From assembly GCF_029846115.1 (NCBI RefSeq), contig NZ_JARVZZ010000001.1, positions 1,364,001 to 1,428,000 of the forward strand: a DNA stretch of 64,000 nt, in the 5' to 3' direction. This DNA comes from Serratia marcescens (GTDB lineage Bacteria; Pseudomonadota; Gammaproteobacteria; Enterobacterales; Enterobacteriaceae). This document shows, piece by piece, positions 3,415 through 52,649 of this stretch (positions are counted from its first letter, which is position 1; each line of letters begins with the position of its first letter). The notes under the pieces were generated by a model. That model was not told where the DNA came from, ran no database searches, and worked only from the letters and a program-made list of their open reading frames with translations. The translations under genes were made by a program, and so were the position numbers.

Positions 3415-3945
3415 TTACTTCTTGGCGGCGCGTTCGAAGGAGGCGATGATTTCCGCTTTAGCCGCGGCAGCGTCTGCCCAGCCTTCCACTTTCACCCATT
3501 TGCCTTTTTCCAGATCTTTGTAGTGCTCGAAGAAGTGAGCGATCTGGGCTTTCAGCAGTTCCGGCAGGTCGTTCACGTCTTTCACGTGATCGTACTCTTT
3601 GGTCAGCTTGCTGTGCGGTACCGCAACCAGCTTGGCGTCTTCACCGGCTTCGTCGGTCATTTTCAGCACGCCAACCGGACGGCAGCGGATCACGGAGCCC
3701 GGCTGCAGCGGGTATGGGGTTGGAACCAGCACGTCAACCGGGTCGCCGTCCAGAGACAGGGTGTGGTTGATGTAGCCGTAGTTGCACGGGTAGAACATCG
3801 CGGTGGACATGAAACGGTCAACGAACAGCGCGCCGGTTTCTTTGTCGATTTCGTATTTGATTGGATCGGCGTTGGCCGGGATTTCGATTACTACGTAGAT
3901 GTCTTCCGGCAGGTCTTTGCCAGCAGGGACCAGATTCAAGCTCAT
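3415..3945 (-). CDS. ppa: Inorganic pyrophosphatase
   Basis: This 176-residue family I soluble pyrophosphatase hydrolyses PPi to two phosphates in the cytoplasm and so pulls biosynthetic reactions forward. The signature DGDPVDVLV, with its metal-binding aspartates, lies near residues 66-74. The length equals that of the E. coli enzyme (176). The gene is monocistronic: it converges on ytfP, and its upstream region (3946-4080) separates it from the chemoreceptor gene. The start codon has a purine-rich ribosome-binding site (AAAGGAAA) at the usual distance. Confidence 0.97.
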
Positions 3946-19678: not shown

Positions 19679-19743
19679 AATCTCGGGATAACAGCTGGAT
19701 AACGTGCCGTCATACTACGGTGCAATCAGGGAAAAAGTAAACG

Positions 19744-19772
19744 ATGACCCTCAAGGAACTCTAGGCTAAAAT
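19744..19772 (+). promoter_or_regulatory. Sigma-70 promoter of greA
   Basis: ATGACC (19744-19749), a 17-base spacer and TAAAAT (19767-19772) form a good vegetative promoter reading towards greA, leaving a leader of about 155 bases. Confidence 0.55.
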
Positions 19773-19782
19773 GCGTATCAAA
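19755..19782 (+). promoter_or_regulatory. Sigma-E type promoter of greA, overlapping the sigma-70 promoter
   Basis: GGAACTC (19755-19761), a 16-base spacer and TCAAA (19778-19782) match the RpoE consensus GGAACTT-N15/16-TCTGA-type pattern. E. coli greA is also known to have a sigma-E promoter, which supports the call. Confidence 0.5.
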
Positions 19783-19934
19783 ATGCAAAACCAATCTTGG
19801 CTTGGGCCTCGTTCCGAGTCAGGTTTCTTTTGTTTGTCGCCTGGAGGCGGGTGGCGGTATGCCAACCGTGTTTTCATACGAATACGTCAGGATGACGGTT
19901 ATTTGAACAGGAAAGATTTAGAGGTATTTATACG

Positions 19935-26699: not shown

Positions 26700-26832
26700 C
26701 TTTCCTTTAAGTGTTTATTTTCAAATACACTTTTCGATTGAAACCCGCTTTTCTCGATCAACATTTGAAAATGACACTTGCTCGAAAGTTGTACCGAGGC
26801 CGCCTAGCGGCAAACAGGGTCCAGTTGCATAA

Positions 26833-26856
26833 AGCCCCGATTTTTCGGGGTTTTTT
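26833..26856 (+). terminator. First terminator after metY
   Basis: A GCCCCGA / TCGGGG stem with a T-rich loop is followed by six T. It would release most transcripts after the tRNA and leave partial read-through into rimP-nusA-infB. Confidence 0.85.
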
Positions 26857-26878
26857 GTTATTTGGCAACAGAATCACT

Positions 26879-26899
26879 GGGCTATTTAGCCCTTTTTTT
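26879..26899 (+). terminator. Second, tandem terminator before rimP
   Basis: A GGGCTA / TAGCCC stem with a two-base loop and seven T lies 18 bp before the rimP start. Tandem terminators at this place are known in E. coli, where NusA regulates read-through. Confidence 0.82.
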
Positions 26900-33084: not shown

Positions 33085-33159
33085 GGCGCAGCTTATGCAT
33101 TGGGTTGCTGAATTAGAGATCGGCGCCTGTTTTTATTATCTATAATCTGGAGTATTACA

Positions 33160-33429
33160 ATGTCTCTAAGTGTTGAAGCTAAAGCTCAAATCGTAGCTGA
33201 TTTCGGTCGTGGTACTAACGACAGCGGTTCTACCGAAGTTCAGGTTGCCCTGCTGACTGCGCAGATCAACCATCTGCAAGGCCACTTCTCCGAGCACAAA
33301 AAAGATCACCACAGCCGTCGTGGTCTGCTGCGTATGGTTTCTCAGCGTCGTAAGCTGCTGGACTACCTGAAGCGTAAAGATGTAGCACGTTACACCAGCC
33401 TGATCGAGCGTCTGGGTCTGCGTCGCTAA
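33160..33429 (+). CDS. rpsO: 30S ribosomal protein S15
   Basis: An 89-residue S15 protein ([17 protein letters not shown]...) that binds 16S rRNA helices 20-22 early in assembly. It shows the conserved basic [25 protein letters not shown] segment in overlapping blocks. The length equals E. coli S15. It has its own promoter and terminator and also forms part of read-through transcripts into pnp. Confidence 0.99.
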
Positions 33430-33446
33430 TCTAGCAAGTTTCAGTG

Positions 33447-33477
33447 GAAAGGGGCCTATTTTGGCCCCTTTCTTCTA
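33447..33477 (+). terminator. Terminator of rpsO
   Basis: A ten-base-pair stem (GAAAGGGGCC / GGCCCCTTTC) with a six-base loop and a short T-rich tail lies 18 bases after the rpsO stop. Confidence 0.85.
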
Positions 33478-33547
33478 GGAAGCATAAGCAAATCAGGTTA
33501 ATGTATTACTGATGTTTCCAAACAGGTTCTTCCGTTACAGAGGTTCG

Positions 33548-33603
33548 CGCGGCTAATGAGAGGCTTTATCTCCCGCCTGAGATAAGGATTGTCATTAGTC
33601 GCG
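33548..33603 (+). promoter_or_regulatory. RNase III-type stem-loop of the pnp leader (SraG/PsrO locus)
   Basis: An outer 12-bp stem pairs 33548-33559 with 33592-33603 (one G-U), and an inner stem pairs TTATCTC (33566-33572) with GAGATAA (33579-33585). This is the long duplex that in E. coli is cut by RNase III so that PNPase can destabilise its own mRNA. In E. coli the small RNA SraG maps to the same rpsO-pnp interval. Confidence 0.78.
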
Positions 33604-33685
33604 AGGATGTAGTGAGAAGGCAAATCGAGTCACAGGCGTGTCGAGTCGTCAATGCGATTGCGCGCCGCTAATCAAGGATATAATT

Positions 33686-48650: not shown

Positions 48651-49967
48651 TTACCCCTTTTTTCCCGCCAGCTCAAATCGCGGCGAGACGATGCCGTACA
48701 GCGTCCAGCCGAGGAAGGTGGCGATGGCGCCCCACATCATCGCTTCCTCACCGGAGCTGTAGAGCGCGTAGAAGCTGTACAGCGCGCCGATGCCGGCGAT
48801 GATATTGGCGATGCGCGCCTTGTTGTCCGGCACTTTCGCCACTTTTTGAATAATGACCAGCGCCGCCATCGACAGGATATAAGGGATGATGTTGGTCACC
48901 ACCGCCAGGTTCACCAGCACGTTGAACTGCTTGTTCAGCGACGGGCTGATGGTCATCAGCGACAGGCCGCTCTGGATGACGACGATGGTCAGCATGCCTT
49001 TAACCGGCGCGTCGGCCTTGCTCAGCTTGGAGAAGATTTTCGGGAAGAAGCCGCTGTCGGCGGAGGATTTGAACACCTGAGCGATGGTGAACTGCCAGCC
49101 GAGCAGCGAGCCGACGCAGGACATGACCATCAACGCCATGATGATCTTGCCGACCGTCGGGTTGAACATGTGGGAGAACGCCAGCCCGAACGGGGCGGTG
49201 GAGTTGGCCAGATCCATGTTCGGCACGATGCCGGCGATCACGTTGGTCGAAATGATATAGATCACCGCCGCGCTGAGGGTGCCGCCCAGTACGGCGATCG
49301 GCACGTTGCGCTCCGGATTTTCCACCACGTCGGTGTTGGCGCAGGCGGATTCCAGCCCCAGAAACGCCCACAGGGTCATCGAGATCGAGGCGCCGATGGC
49401 TTCGAAGGTCGGCACCTGATGTGGGTTCCAGGCGGCGACGTAGGCGCTGCCGCTGAACCAGTACCAACCGACAACCGAGATGCCCACCACCGGAATGATC
49501 ACGCCCCAGACGGTGATGCCGCTGATTTTGCCGGTGATGCGCGCACCGCCGAAGTTGGCGACGGTCGCCAGCCACAGCACGCCGATGGTGGCGATACAGA
49601 TCCCGAGCGGGCTGAGCGTAGCGCCAAACAGCTCGGTGCCGTAGCCGACGGCGGAAATGGCGATGGCGATGTTGGCGATCAGCAGCGAAACGCCGTAGGT
49701 GTAGTTCGCCATAAAGTTGCCTGATTTGCCGAAGGCGTATTCGGCGTAGCCGCCCATGCCGCCGGATTTACGGCTGAACATGCCACATTTGGCGAACGCG
49801 TAGGCCAGCGCCATCGAGCCGACGGCGGTCACCAGCCAGGAAACGATCGAAATCGTGCCCACTTCGGCCAGCTTGGTCGGCAGCATAATTATGCCGGAAC
49901 CCATCATATTCACGGCGGTCAGGATCGTTAATTGCACGACCCCCATTTTATTATTGGACTTACTCAT
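48651..49967 (-). CDS. potE: Putrescine/ornithine antiporter PotE
   Basis: A 438-residue APC-family antiporter with 12 membrane helices. The N-terminal NMMGSGIIMLPTKLAEVG and the CANTDVVENPERNVPIA segment are almost the same as in E. coli PotE (439). It exports putrescine in exchange for ornithine at acidic pH. It lies 62 bp after speF, with a hairpin in between. The start could also be two codons upstream. Confidence 0.97.
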   Translation of the reverse strand: MSKSNNKMGVVQLTILTAVNMMGSGIIMLPTKLAEVGTISIVSWLVTAVGSMALAYAFAKCGMFSRKSGGMGGYAEYAFGKSGNFMANYTYGVSLLIANIAIAISAVGYGTELFGATLSPLGICIATIGVLWLATVANFGGARITGKISGITVWGVIIPVVGISVVGWYWFSGSAYVAAWNPHQVPTFEAIGASISMTLWAFLGLESACANTDVVENPERNVPIAVLGGTLSAAVIYIISTNVIAGIVPNMDLANSTAPFGLAFSHMFNPTVGKIIMALMVMSCVGSLLGWQFTIAQVFKSSADSGFFPKIFSKLSKADAPVKGMLTIVVIQSGLSLMTISPSLNKQFNVLVNLAVVTNIIPYILSMAALVIIQKVAKVPDNKARIANIIAGIGALYSFYALYSSGEEAMMWGAIATFLGWTLYGIVSPRFELAGKKG

Positions 49968-49995
49968 GATCATTTTCTCTTTTAGGATGCGATCC

Positions 49996-50029: not shown

Positions 50030-52192
50030 TTAATTTTTCATGACGTAGCCGTAAGCGCGGTTCCAGCCGTCCTCATCCTGTTGGATATAAACGCCCTGCA
50101 ATTCCGGTGCGAATCCCGGCAATAAGTTGATGCCTTCTTCCAATGCCAGGAAATAACGCTGCGCGGCGCCACCCCAAATTTCACCGGGCACGACGCACAG
50201 CACGCCAGGCGGGTAAGGCAGGGCGCCTTCGGCGGCGATGCGGCCCTCGGCTTTTGCCAGCGAGACCAATTCCACATTGCCGCGCACGAACTCGGTATTG
50301 GCGTCCTGAGGATTCATCACCACGCGCGGGAAATAACTTTTGCGGAACATCTCTTTTTGCAGCTCTTTAACGTCGTAGCTGACGTAAAGGTCGTGCATTT
50401 CCTGGCACAGCTGGCGGATGGTGTAGTTTTTGTAGCGCTGCTGGTGGTTTTTATAGACCGCAGGCAGCACCTCGCTGAGCAGGGAGTTCTGCTCGATGTG
50501 CTTCTCGAAGCGGGCGATCAGGGCCACCAGATGCTGCATCTTGGCGATGTCTTCCGCCGGCGTCAGCAGGAACAGGATCGAGTTGAGATCGCATTTTTCC
50601 GGCACGATGCCGTTTTCACGCAGGTAGTTGGCCAGAATGGTCGCCGGGATGCCGAACTCGCTGTAGCTGCCGGTGGCGGTATCGATGCCCGGCGTGGTGA
50701 GCAGCAGTTTGCACGGATCGACGAAGTACTGCGATTCGGCATAGCCCTCAAAGGCGTGCCATTTTTCGCCGGGCACGAAGTTGAAGAAGCGCAGATCGTT
50801 GGCCATCGCCGCGGTGTCATAGGCCTGCCACGGTTTGCCGTCGATCTGATCCGGCACGAAGGGTTTGATCATCGTGCAGGTGTCCAGCAGCATTTTGCGC
50901 GCTTCGATCCCCACGCGCACGCACTCCTGCCACAGGCGCTGGCCGCTTTTGCCCTCGTGCATCTTGGCGTTGACGTCCAGTGCGGCGAACAGCGGATAGA
51001 ACGGGCTGGTGGAGGCGTGCAGCATAAAGGCGTTGTTGAAGCGCTTGTGGTTGCAGTAGCGGCTCTGCCCTTTGATATGCTTGTCTTTTTTGTGGATCTG
51101 CGAGGTCTGCGAGAAACCGGCCTGCTGTTTGTGCACCGACTGGGTGACGATGATGCCAGGATCGTTCTCGTTCAGCTCCAGCAGCAGCGGCGAGCAGTCT
51201 TTCATCATCGGAATGAACTGCTCATAGCCCACCCAGGCGGAGTCGAACAGGATGTAGTCGCACAGGTGGCCAATCTTGTCGACCACCTGGCGGGCGTTGT
51301 AGATGGTGCCGTCGTAGGTGCCGAGCTGGATGATCGCCAGGCGGAACGGGCGGGCTTCGTTGGCGCGTTCCGGCGCCACTTCGCGGATCTGTTGGCGCAG
51401 GTAGCGTTCGTCGAAGCAGTGCGCGTCGATGCCGCCGATAAAGCCGAACGGGTTGCGGGCGGTTTCCAGGTAAACCGGCGTGGCGCCGGCCTGGATCAAC
51501 GCGCCGTGGTGGTTGGATTTATGGTTGTTGCGGTCGAACAGCACCAGATCGCCGCGCGTCAGCAGGGCGTTGGTCGCCACCTTGTTCGAGGCCGAGGTGC
51601 CGTTGAGCACGAAGTAGGTCTTGTCGGCGTTGAACACCTTGGCGGCGTGCTGCTGAGCGGCGCAAGGCGCGCCTTCGTGGATCAACAGATCGCCCAGTTT
51701 GACGTCGGCGTTGCACATGTCGGAGCGGAAAAGCGTTTCGCCGTAGAAGTCAAAGAACTGGCGGCCCGCCGGGTGTTTGCGGAAGAACTCGCCGCCCTGG
51801 TGGCCGGGGCAGGCGAAGGTGGCGTTGCCCATTTCCACATACTGCGTCAGCGTGTTGAAGAACGGCGGCAGCAGCTCGCTCTCATATTTGGCGGCGGCGG
51901 CCTCCAGCTGTTTGCCGTAGAACTGGGTATTCTTGCCGCACAGCTCAAACACGCCGTGCAGCGCCGGCAATACGGCGTTATCCAGCTCTTCTTCGCAGCA
52001 GACGGCGACGAACAGCGGAATGTTCAGGCCGTGTTCTTCGATGCGCGCCAACATACCTTGCGTGACATCATCTACCGACAGCACGATGGCGGCGACGTCA
52101 TTAAAATCGCTGTGATGCACATCGACGATGTCGCGTTCAGTTTCAAAGCAGCCGAGGGTTTGGGTGTTGGCGGCAATTTTTAATTTTTTCAT
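50030..52192 (-). CDS. speF: Inducible ornithine decarboxylase SpeF
   Basis: A 720-residue PLP enzyme of the Orn/Lys/Arg decarboxylase class that turns ornithine into putrescine and consumes a proton. An N-terminal wing domain (1-105) is followed by the PLP domain: CPGHQGGEFFRKHPAG, the HEGAPC region, DSAWVGYEQF, and the Schiff-base lysine in SVHKQQ at about residue 355. The C-terminal domain contains PYPPGVLCVVPGEIWGG. Pairing with potE and an upstream speFL leader identify it as SpeF rather than the constitutive SpeC. ATG 52192 is better spaced than ATG 52201. Confidence 0.96.
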   Translation of the reverse strand: MKKLKIAANTQTLGCFETERDIVDVHHSDFNDVAAIVLSVDDVTQGMLARIEEHGLNIPLFVAVCCEEELDNAVLPALHGVFELCGKNTQFYGKQLEAAAAKYESELLPPFFNTLTQYVEMGNATFACPGHQGGEFFRKHPAGRQFFDFYGETLFRSDMCNADVKLGDLLIHEGAPCAAQQHAAKVFNADKTYFVLNGTSASNKVATNALLTRGDLVLFDRNNHKSNHHGALIQAGATPVYLETARNPFGFIGGIDAHCFDERYLRQQIREVAPERANEARPFRLAIIQLGTYDGTIYNARQVVDKIGHLCDYILFDSAWVGYEQFIPMMKDCSPLLLELNENDPGIIVTQSVHKQQAGFSQTSQIHKKDKHIKGQSRYCNHKRFNNAFMLHASTSPFYPLFAALDVNAKMHEGKSGQRLWQECVRVGIEARKMLLDTCTMIKPFVPDQIDGKPWQAYDTAAMANDLRFFNFVPGEKWHAFEGYAESQYFVDPCKLLLTTPGIDTATGSYSEFGIPATILANYLRENGIVPEKCDLNSILFLLTPAEDIAKMQHLVALIARFEKHIEQNSLLSEVLPAVYKNHQQRYKNYTIRQLCQEMHDLYVSYDVKELQKEMFRKSYFPRVVMNPQDANTEFVRGNVELVSLAKAEGRIAAEGALPYPPGVLCVVPGEIWGGAAQRYFLALEEGINLLPGFAPELQGVYIQQDEDGWNRAYGYVMKN

Positions 52193-52223
52193 TTTTCTCA
52201 TTCTTCAGGCAAAGGCCGTCCGC

Positions 52224-52245
52224 CGGCAAATAATTCCATTTGCCG
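52224..52245 (-). promoter_or_regulatory. Hairpin in the speF leader, proximal to the speF start
   Basis: A perfect eight-base-pair stem (CGGCAAAT / ATTTGCCG) with a six-base loop ends 32 bases before the speF start codon. It may hide or expose the speF ribosome-binding region as part of the SpeFL control. Confidence 0.5.
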
Positions 52246-52272
52246 CTAACGCCTTCACGAAAATAAAGGTGT

Positions 52273-52313
52273 GCGAGAACCCAGTGATGCCGAAAGGCAT
52301 TAACTGTGTTCGC
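52273..52313 (-). promoter_or_regulatory. Long imperfect hairpin in the speFL-speF leader
   Basis: On the minus strand AATGCC-TTTC-GGCATC forms the apex, and GCGAAC...GTTCTCGC forms a bulged lower stem. It lies midway between speFL and speF, where a leader-peptide arrest would be expected to alter mRNA structure or Rho access. Confidence 0.5.
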
Positions 52314-52466
52314 TGTTTTATTTAGCTTGGATGCGCTTGGCCGAAATTAAGAATGAATTGCGTGTCCTTCCCGGTTAGCGAGAAAGAGGTATTATCACCG
52401 GAGTGCGGAGAATAAATAAAAACGCAATGACACTCTTATTAACGGCGTAAGAGCGAGGGGGGAGGG

Positions 52467-52571
52467 TTATCTGTAGTTGAAGAATGCGAAGCTAAAGCAG
52501 CTGCGATGAGCCATCATCATAATATGGGTTGTGCGCCTGATATGCGCCATTTTGCGGTTATTGTTTTCCAT
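52467..52571 (-). CDS. speFL: Ornithine-sensing leader peptide SpeFL
   Basis: A 34-codon ORF, MENNNRKMAHIRRTTHIM... ending FAFFNYR, 274 nt upstream of speF on the same strand. It has the same length as E. coli/Salmonella SpeFL (Orf34) and the same HIRRTTHIM sensor segment, and the Phe-rich effector end FxFxFFNxR is kept with three substitutions. The ATG at 52571 follows AAGGTGG at nine bases. In E. coli the nascent peptide binds ornithine in the exit tunnel, stalls the ribosome and prevents Rho-dependent termination, which switches on speF-potE. The same role is inferred here. The gene is too short for most gene finders. Confidence 0.93.
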   Translation of the reverse strand: MENNNRKMAHIRRTTHIMMMAHRSCFSFAFFNYR

Positions 52572-52607
52572 TTTCTAATCCACCTTGCTGAGTGAAAAGA
52601 TGGCGCT

Positions 52608-52613
52608 ATTTTA
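52608..52613 (-). promoter_or_regulatory. -10 element of the speFL-speF-potE promoter
   Basis: TAAAAT on the minus strand predicts a start near 52601, about 30 nt upstream of speFL. No good -35 box is present, as expected for a CRP-dependent promoter. Confidence 0.5.
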
Positions 52614-52633: not shown

Positions 52634-52649
52634 TGTGATGGTAGTCACA
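52634..52649 (-). promoter_or_regulatory. CRP-binding site upstream of speFL
   Basis: TGTGATGGTAGTCACA is a perfect match to TGTGA-N6-TCACA within AT-rich flanks. Its centre is about 41 bp upstream of the inferred start point, the classical class II activation distance. Confidence 0.75.

Follow-up and report, generated by a model that had tools for sequence, protein, structure and literature searches.

A SpeFL-like leader ORF ahead of speF-potE in Serratia, with its predicted promoter and leader RNA

The locus and the identity of the ORF

The window, by which we mean the whole stretch of 64,000 nucleotides from Serratia marcescens contig NZ_JARVZZ010000001.1, carries on one strand a short ORF followed by speF and potE (Table 1). 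The ORF translates as MENNNRKMAHIRRTTHIMMMAHRSCFSFAFFNYR (34 aa), followed by TAA. The sequence-only reading had proposed a 34-codon ORF here without giving a strand, and its position was borne out exactly. It had also placed the ORF before speF-potE, and speF does follow, 274 nt after the end of the ORF. We put the start of speF at 52192 and not at 52201 because the S. proteamaculans locus (L122) has no upstream ATG.

Table 1. Features of the speFL-speF-potE region, in positions of the window.
Feature	Position	Strand	Basis or remark
CRP-like palindrome TGTGAN6TCACA	52634..52649		centred near -40.5, 20 nt upstream of the -10 box
TAAAAT, -10 box of a predicted promoter for speFL-speF-potE	52608..52613	minus	alignment, 23/23 Serratia leaders
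Shine-Dalgarno of speFL	52580..52586	minus	AAGGTGG, starts 15 nt before the ATG
speFL leader ORF	52467..52571	minus	ATG at 52571, TAA stop 52469-52467, 34 codons
CAUUCUUCA over codons 29-32	52478..52486	minus	predicted partner UGAAGAAUG at the speF start, 52207-52199
C-rich, G-poor stretch, candidate Rho utilisation site	52447..52486	minus	spans the stop codon
Second leader hairpin, moderate support	52277..52311	minus	82.8% paired vs at most 44.2% when slid
Covarying hairpin just before the speF ribosome-binding region	52213..52254	minus	covariation in aligned leaders
speF, inducible ornithine decarboxylase, 720 aa	50030..52192	minus	TIGR04301 1428.5 bits, cut-off 1310
potE, putrescine-ornithine antiporter	48651..49973	minus	TIGR04299 793.2 bits, cut-off 560

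The SpeFL profile PF10940 matches the ORF with 43.1 bits, against a Pfam curated cut-off of 25, and with an E-value of 1.5e-10 in a whole-genome search. Searching the genome with the peptide returned the peptide alone, with the next candidate at only E 0.87. Because of these two results we do not consider the ORF a chance frame. NCBIfam gave no match for it. Among solved structures, the sole sequence match is the E. coli SpeFL of PDB entries 6tbv and 6tc3, which aligns end to end (residues 1–34 on 1–34, E 2.9e-11). The HIRRTTHIM segment is identical between the two, and the Phe-rich effector end is complete (F26, F28, F30, F31 and N32 are all there). The description of a close homologue of the same length, with the same sensor block and a Phe-rich end, is thus confirmed, and that the ORF is a SpeFL orthologue linked to speF is strongly supported by the sequence comparisons.

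The ribosome-binding site had been called strong. The AAGGTGG is present and good, with a duplex energy of -7.3 kcal/mol against the anti-Shine-Dalgarno, but it is not extreme, as 8.4% of random 16-mers from the window equal it. The Shine-Dalgarno of speF itself is weak (-1.5 kcal/mol).

The ORF had further been described as un-annotated, and at the level of the family this is doubtful because current public annotation frequently uses the names SpeFL or DUF2618. Ten plasmid records have a match, and in their incomplete gene table three are named SpeFL, two DUF2618 and five nothing. Out of five E. coli records listed, three have the gene name speFL, and of these three one has SpeFL as the product and two have "hypothetical protein". 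Parts of PMC6386406 already document the family, where it sits relative to speF and how widely it occurs in gamma-proteobacteria. For E. coli and Salmonella the family, its position and its mechanism are published, and the Serratia peptide is a new member. Our literature search, made mostly at the level of search listings, found no study of SpeFL in Serratia and no paper that combines speF, leader peptide, ornithine and Serratia. The present analysis adds the CRP-like palindrome, the covarying hairpin, the AGG bias at Arg12, the lack of UGA stops among the 122 distinct leaders and the apparent losses of speFL. The main SpeFL paper is Herrero del Valle et al. 2020.

Conservation of the peptide and its linkage to speF

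Comparisons between genomes used a set of 168 loci. We skipped seven (one chance hit, three duplicates, two sub-cut-off matches and one plasmid copy lacking a start), another 13 had no ORF under the motif filter and were read apart, and one had no room for speF. This left 147 loci, 122 of them distinct in DNA; the sequences counted are relatives of one another, not independent samples.

In 147 of the 148 loci with a parsed ORF a SpeF follows in the same orientation, and the 148th ends 342 nt past the ORF. The same holds for 11 of 11 divergent or odd SpeFL members. The search of Serratia genomes with the peptide, which had been suggested as a check, found SpeFL in 21 of the 30 genomes in our genus sample, and these are the same 21 that have SpeF at 94–100% identity. 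Of the other nine, five are ordinary genomes that have only a 75–76% paralogue and four are small genomes that have neither (E up to 1e-100). In the SpeF tree the window falls beside S. nevei and one strain labelled S. marcescens, at 85% support. Further out, the family sample has PF10940 matches in 44 genomes out of 198 (43 above the cut-off), and the order sample, which overlaps it, has them in 31 of 394. The class sample gave three in 369, namely the window's own genome and two matches below the cut-off (L053 and L054) that have no SpeF adjoining.

TIGR04301 does not separate SpeF from its paralogue, since the paralogue also exceeds the cut-off of the model. In the window's genome the second ornithine decarboxylase (G000:C1:180804-182963) is 76% identical to SpeF, and the sole speFL found in this genome does not adjoin it.

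There are cases where speF appears to have been kept and speFL lost. Using a line of 1360 bits, which is our own choice and falls just below the score of G040, 48 of the 198 family genomes have a SpeF match. A PF10940 match is present in 43 of these, and reading G040 revealed the peptide there. The remaining four (G038, G186, G224 and G104, loci L169-L172) have no speFL ORF in approximately 1 kb upstream of speF. Instead, the end of another ORF lies 256–268 nt upstream of speF, and this end presumably resembles KdpE. In these four speFL looks to have been lost naturally while speF was retained, although the search that overlooked G040 may have overlooked a copy elsewhere. With an apparent absence in four of the 48 relatives that have SpeF, the peptide is not indispensable, and these genomes offer ready comparisons. 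The next genome below the line, G143 (1352.3 bits), has no speFL upstream either, and its SpeF match may be the paralogue. G056, which is 49% complete, has the peptide, and a SpeF search of it at E up to 1e-300 gave nothing. As a separate case, the speFL of Kluyvera genomosp. 3 (L103, around 3620-3780) is frameshifted between the start and the HIRR segment.

Such losses raise the question of whether the Serratia ORF is the remnant of a leader peptide that has ceased to function, and the weak Shine-Dalgarno of speF points the same way. We find this highly improbable, because the ORF is open and 94–100% identical in 21 of 21 speF-bearing genomes of the genus.

Selection on the peptide is visible within the genus. 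The 23 distinct Serratia leaders contain 18 DNA versions of the ORF, which encode just four peptides. Out of 26 variable columns, 22 are third positions, three are first and one is second. The changes are silent in 21 of the 23 variable codons, compared with 16.5% expected for single changes made at random. The two non-silent codons are 21 (Ala/Ser) and 33 (Tyr/Phe/Cys). Across 39 distinct 34-mers, 29 of which occur in a locus that came from a model or similarity search, H10-R13, H16, M18, R23, F26 and F28 are invariant; for residues 10-19 the search itself enforces part of this constancy, because the filter demands RR and the scan demands HIRRTTHIMM codons, and R23, F26 and F28 lie outside the search motif. 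These patterns support the conclusion that the Serratia ORF has been selected as a translated peptide.

They also bear on whether conservation acts on the leader as RNA or as DNA and merely carries the ORF along. A covarying hairpin, perhaps a second one, and conserved promoter elements (all discussed in the next section) would fit such a view. Against it, changes in the ORF are mostly silent, no insertions or deletions fall inside it in the 23 Serratia leaders and many fall past the stop, and the leader has no Rfam match. We give this explanation very little credence and read the ORF as a selected peptide.

We found no SpeFL match among 50,697 phage records. The ten matching plasmid records include three of more than 4 Mb. 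The Pantoea agglomerans plasmid NZ_CP143416.1 (L056), which is typed as mobilizable, carries a speFL-speF-potE unit with an IS21-like gene about 2.6 kb away, and the sensor and the operon might thus travel together. Eight members from another family of the order (f3, L058-L065) have C-terminal tails after the effector region. They score highest on PF10940 and all eight have speF downstream.

Predicted promoter and leader RNA

A plain sigma-70 scan called no promoter, and the promoter is visible by comparison alone. The CRP-like palindrome is the one perfect TGTGAN6TCACA in the 64-kb window, where 0.01 would be expected. All 23 Serratia leaders have at least 8 of its 10 core bases (tested against shuffles, p does not exceed 0.015 in 22 of them and is 0.065 in L167), and in all 23 the TAAAAT lies at a constant spacing from it, with variable bases in between. 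We take this spacing to fit the rule for a class II CRP promoter. In the 98 non-Serratia leaders (the count omitted one of the 122), 25 have 9 of 10 core bases and 49 have 8 of 10; shuffles of the first 60 of these leaders reach 9 in 0.6% of cases. When we also required the position and the spacing to the -10 box, 66 of the 98 had at least 8 core bases. The predicted transcription start is near 52601, which puts speFL from about +31. The same count puts speFL at +32 in S. enterica diarizonae (L139), and the start mapped in Salmonella also puts the ORF at +32, according to part of PMC6386406. The word CRP is absent from the main text of that paper. Transcription of speFL-speF-potE probably also needs CRP.

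The leader as a whole folds with a z of -2.55. In 24 aligned leaders (21 distinct) the hairpin nearest speF has 93.2% of its cells paired, where sliding it gives no more than 54.4%, and in 9 of 12 pairs both sides have changed; the percentages for both hairpins are flattered because the structures were derived from these same sequences. On four of five covariation measures 0 of 500 shuffles scored as high, and on the fifth, the pair types, 71 of 500 did. For the second hairpin, shuffles match the number of changed pairs in 79 of 500 cases and the pair types in 456 of 500, and on these two of the five measures it does not beat the shuffles. We found no known RNA element in the leader, with no Rfam match at the gathering threshold or at E up to 1. 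Elsewhere in the window there are four: the greA leader (19709-19830), the rimP leader (26798-26899), the S15 leader (33100-33216) and SraG (33446-33619).

The minimum-energy fold includes a pairing between CAUUCUUCA, at the 3' end of speFL, and UGAAGAAUG, at the start of speF. We evaluated this pairing in 102 distinct pairs, skipping leaders without H[IVL]M. It is insignificant in Serratia (mean z -1.17, median p 0.165), and we keep it as a possibility. The same pairing beats mononucleotide shuffles in two groups of Enterobacteriaceae (mean z -2.06 and -2.11), with the rest at -0.37. With a longer segment and dinucleotide shuffles the mean z is -0.43 in Serratia and -1.66 in the others. The pairing registers differ among Serratia species. 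When ends were swapped, Serratia ends paired best with Serratia start regions, and one Enterobacteriaceae group paired about equally with the Serratia start region and its own.

The C-rich stretch is a candidate Rho site. In all 23 Serratia leaders the 40-nt segment with the highest C-minus-G starts between 26 nt and 1 nt ahead of the point where the stop codon ends. Compared with shuffles, the stretch reaches p of at most 0.05 in only 7 of the 23, and p is 0.07 in the window. For Salmonella, the sections of PMC6386406 used here propose a CU-rich stretch before the stop as a Rho site and an anti-Shine-Dalgarno.

Proposed regulation and comparison with known systems

We are confident, short of certainty, that Serratia has in this ORF its own orthologue of the arrest peptide SpeFL, which acts in cis as the sensor of the speF-potE operon. 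The best inference from sequence and from the better-known relatives is that capture of ornithine by the ribosome controls speF in Serratia too. In a ribosome translating SpeFL, ornithine would be trapped between the exit tunnel and the HIRR..H segment of the peptide, and on reaching UAA the ribosome would then be unable to let the completed chain go (parts of this mechanism are taken from sections of PMC8429421 and PMC7815308). The arrested ribosome would sit over the C-rich stretch around the stop and keep Rho off the nascent RNA, and its stalling may free the ribosome-binding region of speF. With plentiful ornithine, speF-potE would then be expressed. For Serratia, we infer the arrest and the actions of Rho and CRP from relatives together with the sequence. 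The comparisons give ornithine control of putrescine synthesis in Serratia a firm comparative footing and supply a compact set of testable parts.

The Salmonella work complicates this picture. Excerpts of PMC6386406 report a six- to seven-fold increase of speF fusions with ornithine and a requirement for translation of orf34. They also report no effect of ornithine on speF mRNA in exponential phase, and the study, as far as these excerpts go, accounts for orf34 chiefly through arginine. Ornithine may therefore not be the sole input of SpeFL, because the Salmonella orf34 also has an arginine-dependent role. If the leader were chiefly an arginine attenuator, a ribosome short of arginine would slow at Arg12-Arg13 and let a stable leader RNA form, and with ample arginine the mRNA would adopt a fold that RNase G cleaves, which is what was reported for orf34 in the same excerpts.

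The codons are in keeping with this. Counting 112 of the 122 leaders (filtered for MENN at the start), Arg12 is AGG in 93, and over the opening 1150 nt of speF at the same loci AGG makes up only 18 of 2007 Arg codons. Arg23 is CGC, CGT or CGA only, never AGG or AGA. The 23 Serratia leaders use AGG 17 times, AGA four times and CGA twice at Arg12, and all 23 have AGA at Arg34; in the window codons 12-13 are AGG CGC. Two points argue against this reading. Frequent Arg codons at positions 12-13 still gave arginine regulation in Salmonella (PMC6386406, in part), and the constant effector end (F26, F28) would have no role in a pure attenuator. We think it unlikely that the leader works mainly as an arginine attenuator. 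Next to ornithine sensing, which remains our preferred reading, arginine attenuation at Arg12-13 may act as well. Since frequent codons kept the regulation in Salmonella, the strong preference for a rare codon at Arg12 is a testable feature of the family for which the Salmonella experiments do not account.

The stop codons have a pattern of their own. Not one of the 122 distinct leaders uses TGA: 71 stop with TAG and 51 with TAA. TGA does close one (L077) of the 11 divergent or odd members, the other ten having TAA or TAG. By comparison, speF itself ends in TGA in 43 and in TAA in 12 of 55 of those loci, and open frames of at least 250 codons in the named loci, chance frames included, end in TGA in 135 of 244 cases. 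On the SpeF tree (116 rows) the TAG/TAA pattern needs nine changes, eight of them forced by well-supported branches. A legend in PMC6386406 gives a UGA stop for Salmonella, and the sole named Salmonella locus in our analysis has TAG.

SpeFL is reported to block RF1 (PMC8429421, in part). The stop codon could be part of the sensor, such that ornithine arrest would work against RF1 alone and UGA would be barred. We hold this only tentatively, leaning slightly against it. L077 ends in TGA. Among 17 loci whose speFL has a TAA stop, 11 have a TAA speF as well, and shared ancestry thus explains part of the pattern. If it were true, the apparent bar on UGA, a second testable feature of the family, would make the choice of release factor part of a metabolite sensor.

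The alpha-proteobacterial speF RNA element mentioned in PMC6386406 likewise lies before a gene named speF. The Serratia leader differs in that it has no Rfam match at the gathering threshold or at E up to 1. Salmonella orf34, according to excerpts of PMC6386406, is like Serratia speFL in its position, its length and its two consecutive Arg codons, the first of them AGG. In both, the transcription start lies about 31 nt before the ORF. The candidate Rho site is before the stop in Salmonella and across it in Serratia, and the distance from the ORF to speF is 274 nt in Serratia and 379 in S. enterica diarizonae.

The E. coli peptide is like that of Serratia in having 34 residues, HIRRTTHIM, a Phe-rich end, a place before speF-potE on the same strand and a stop readable by RF1. 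The two differ in the C-terminal end (FSFAFFNYR-TAA in Serratia, FDFHFFNAR-TAG in E. coli L055) and in the distance to speF (309 nt in L055). The CRP-like palindrome, which is perfect in Serratia, has 8 of 10 core bases and a weak left half in E. coli.

To our knowledge, TnaC of E. coli is unrelated to SpeFL in sequence. It is similar in that binding of a free amino acid makes the leader peptide block its own release, and it differs in that it senses tryptophan and acts against RF2 (PMC8429421, from the sections used here). If the stop codon is indeed part of the sensor, SpeFL with RF1 would be the mirror image of TnaC with RF2.
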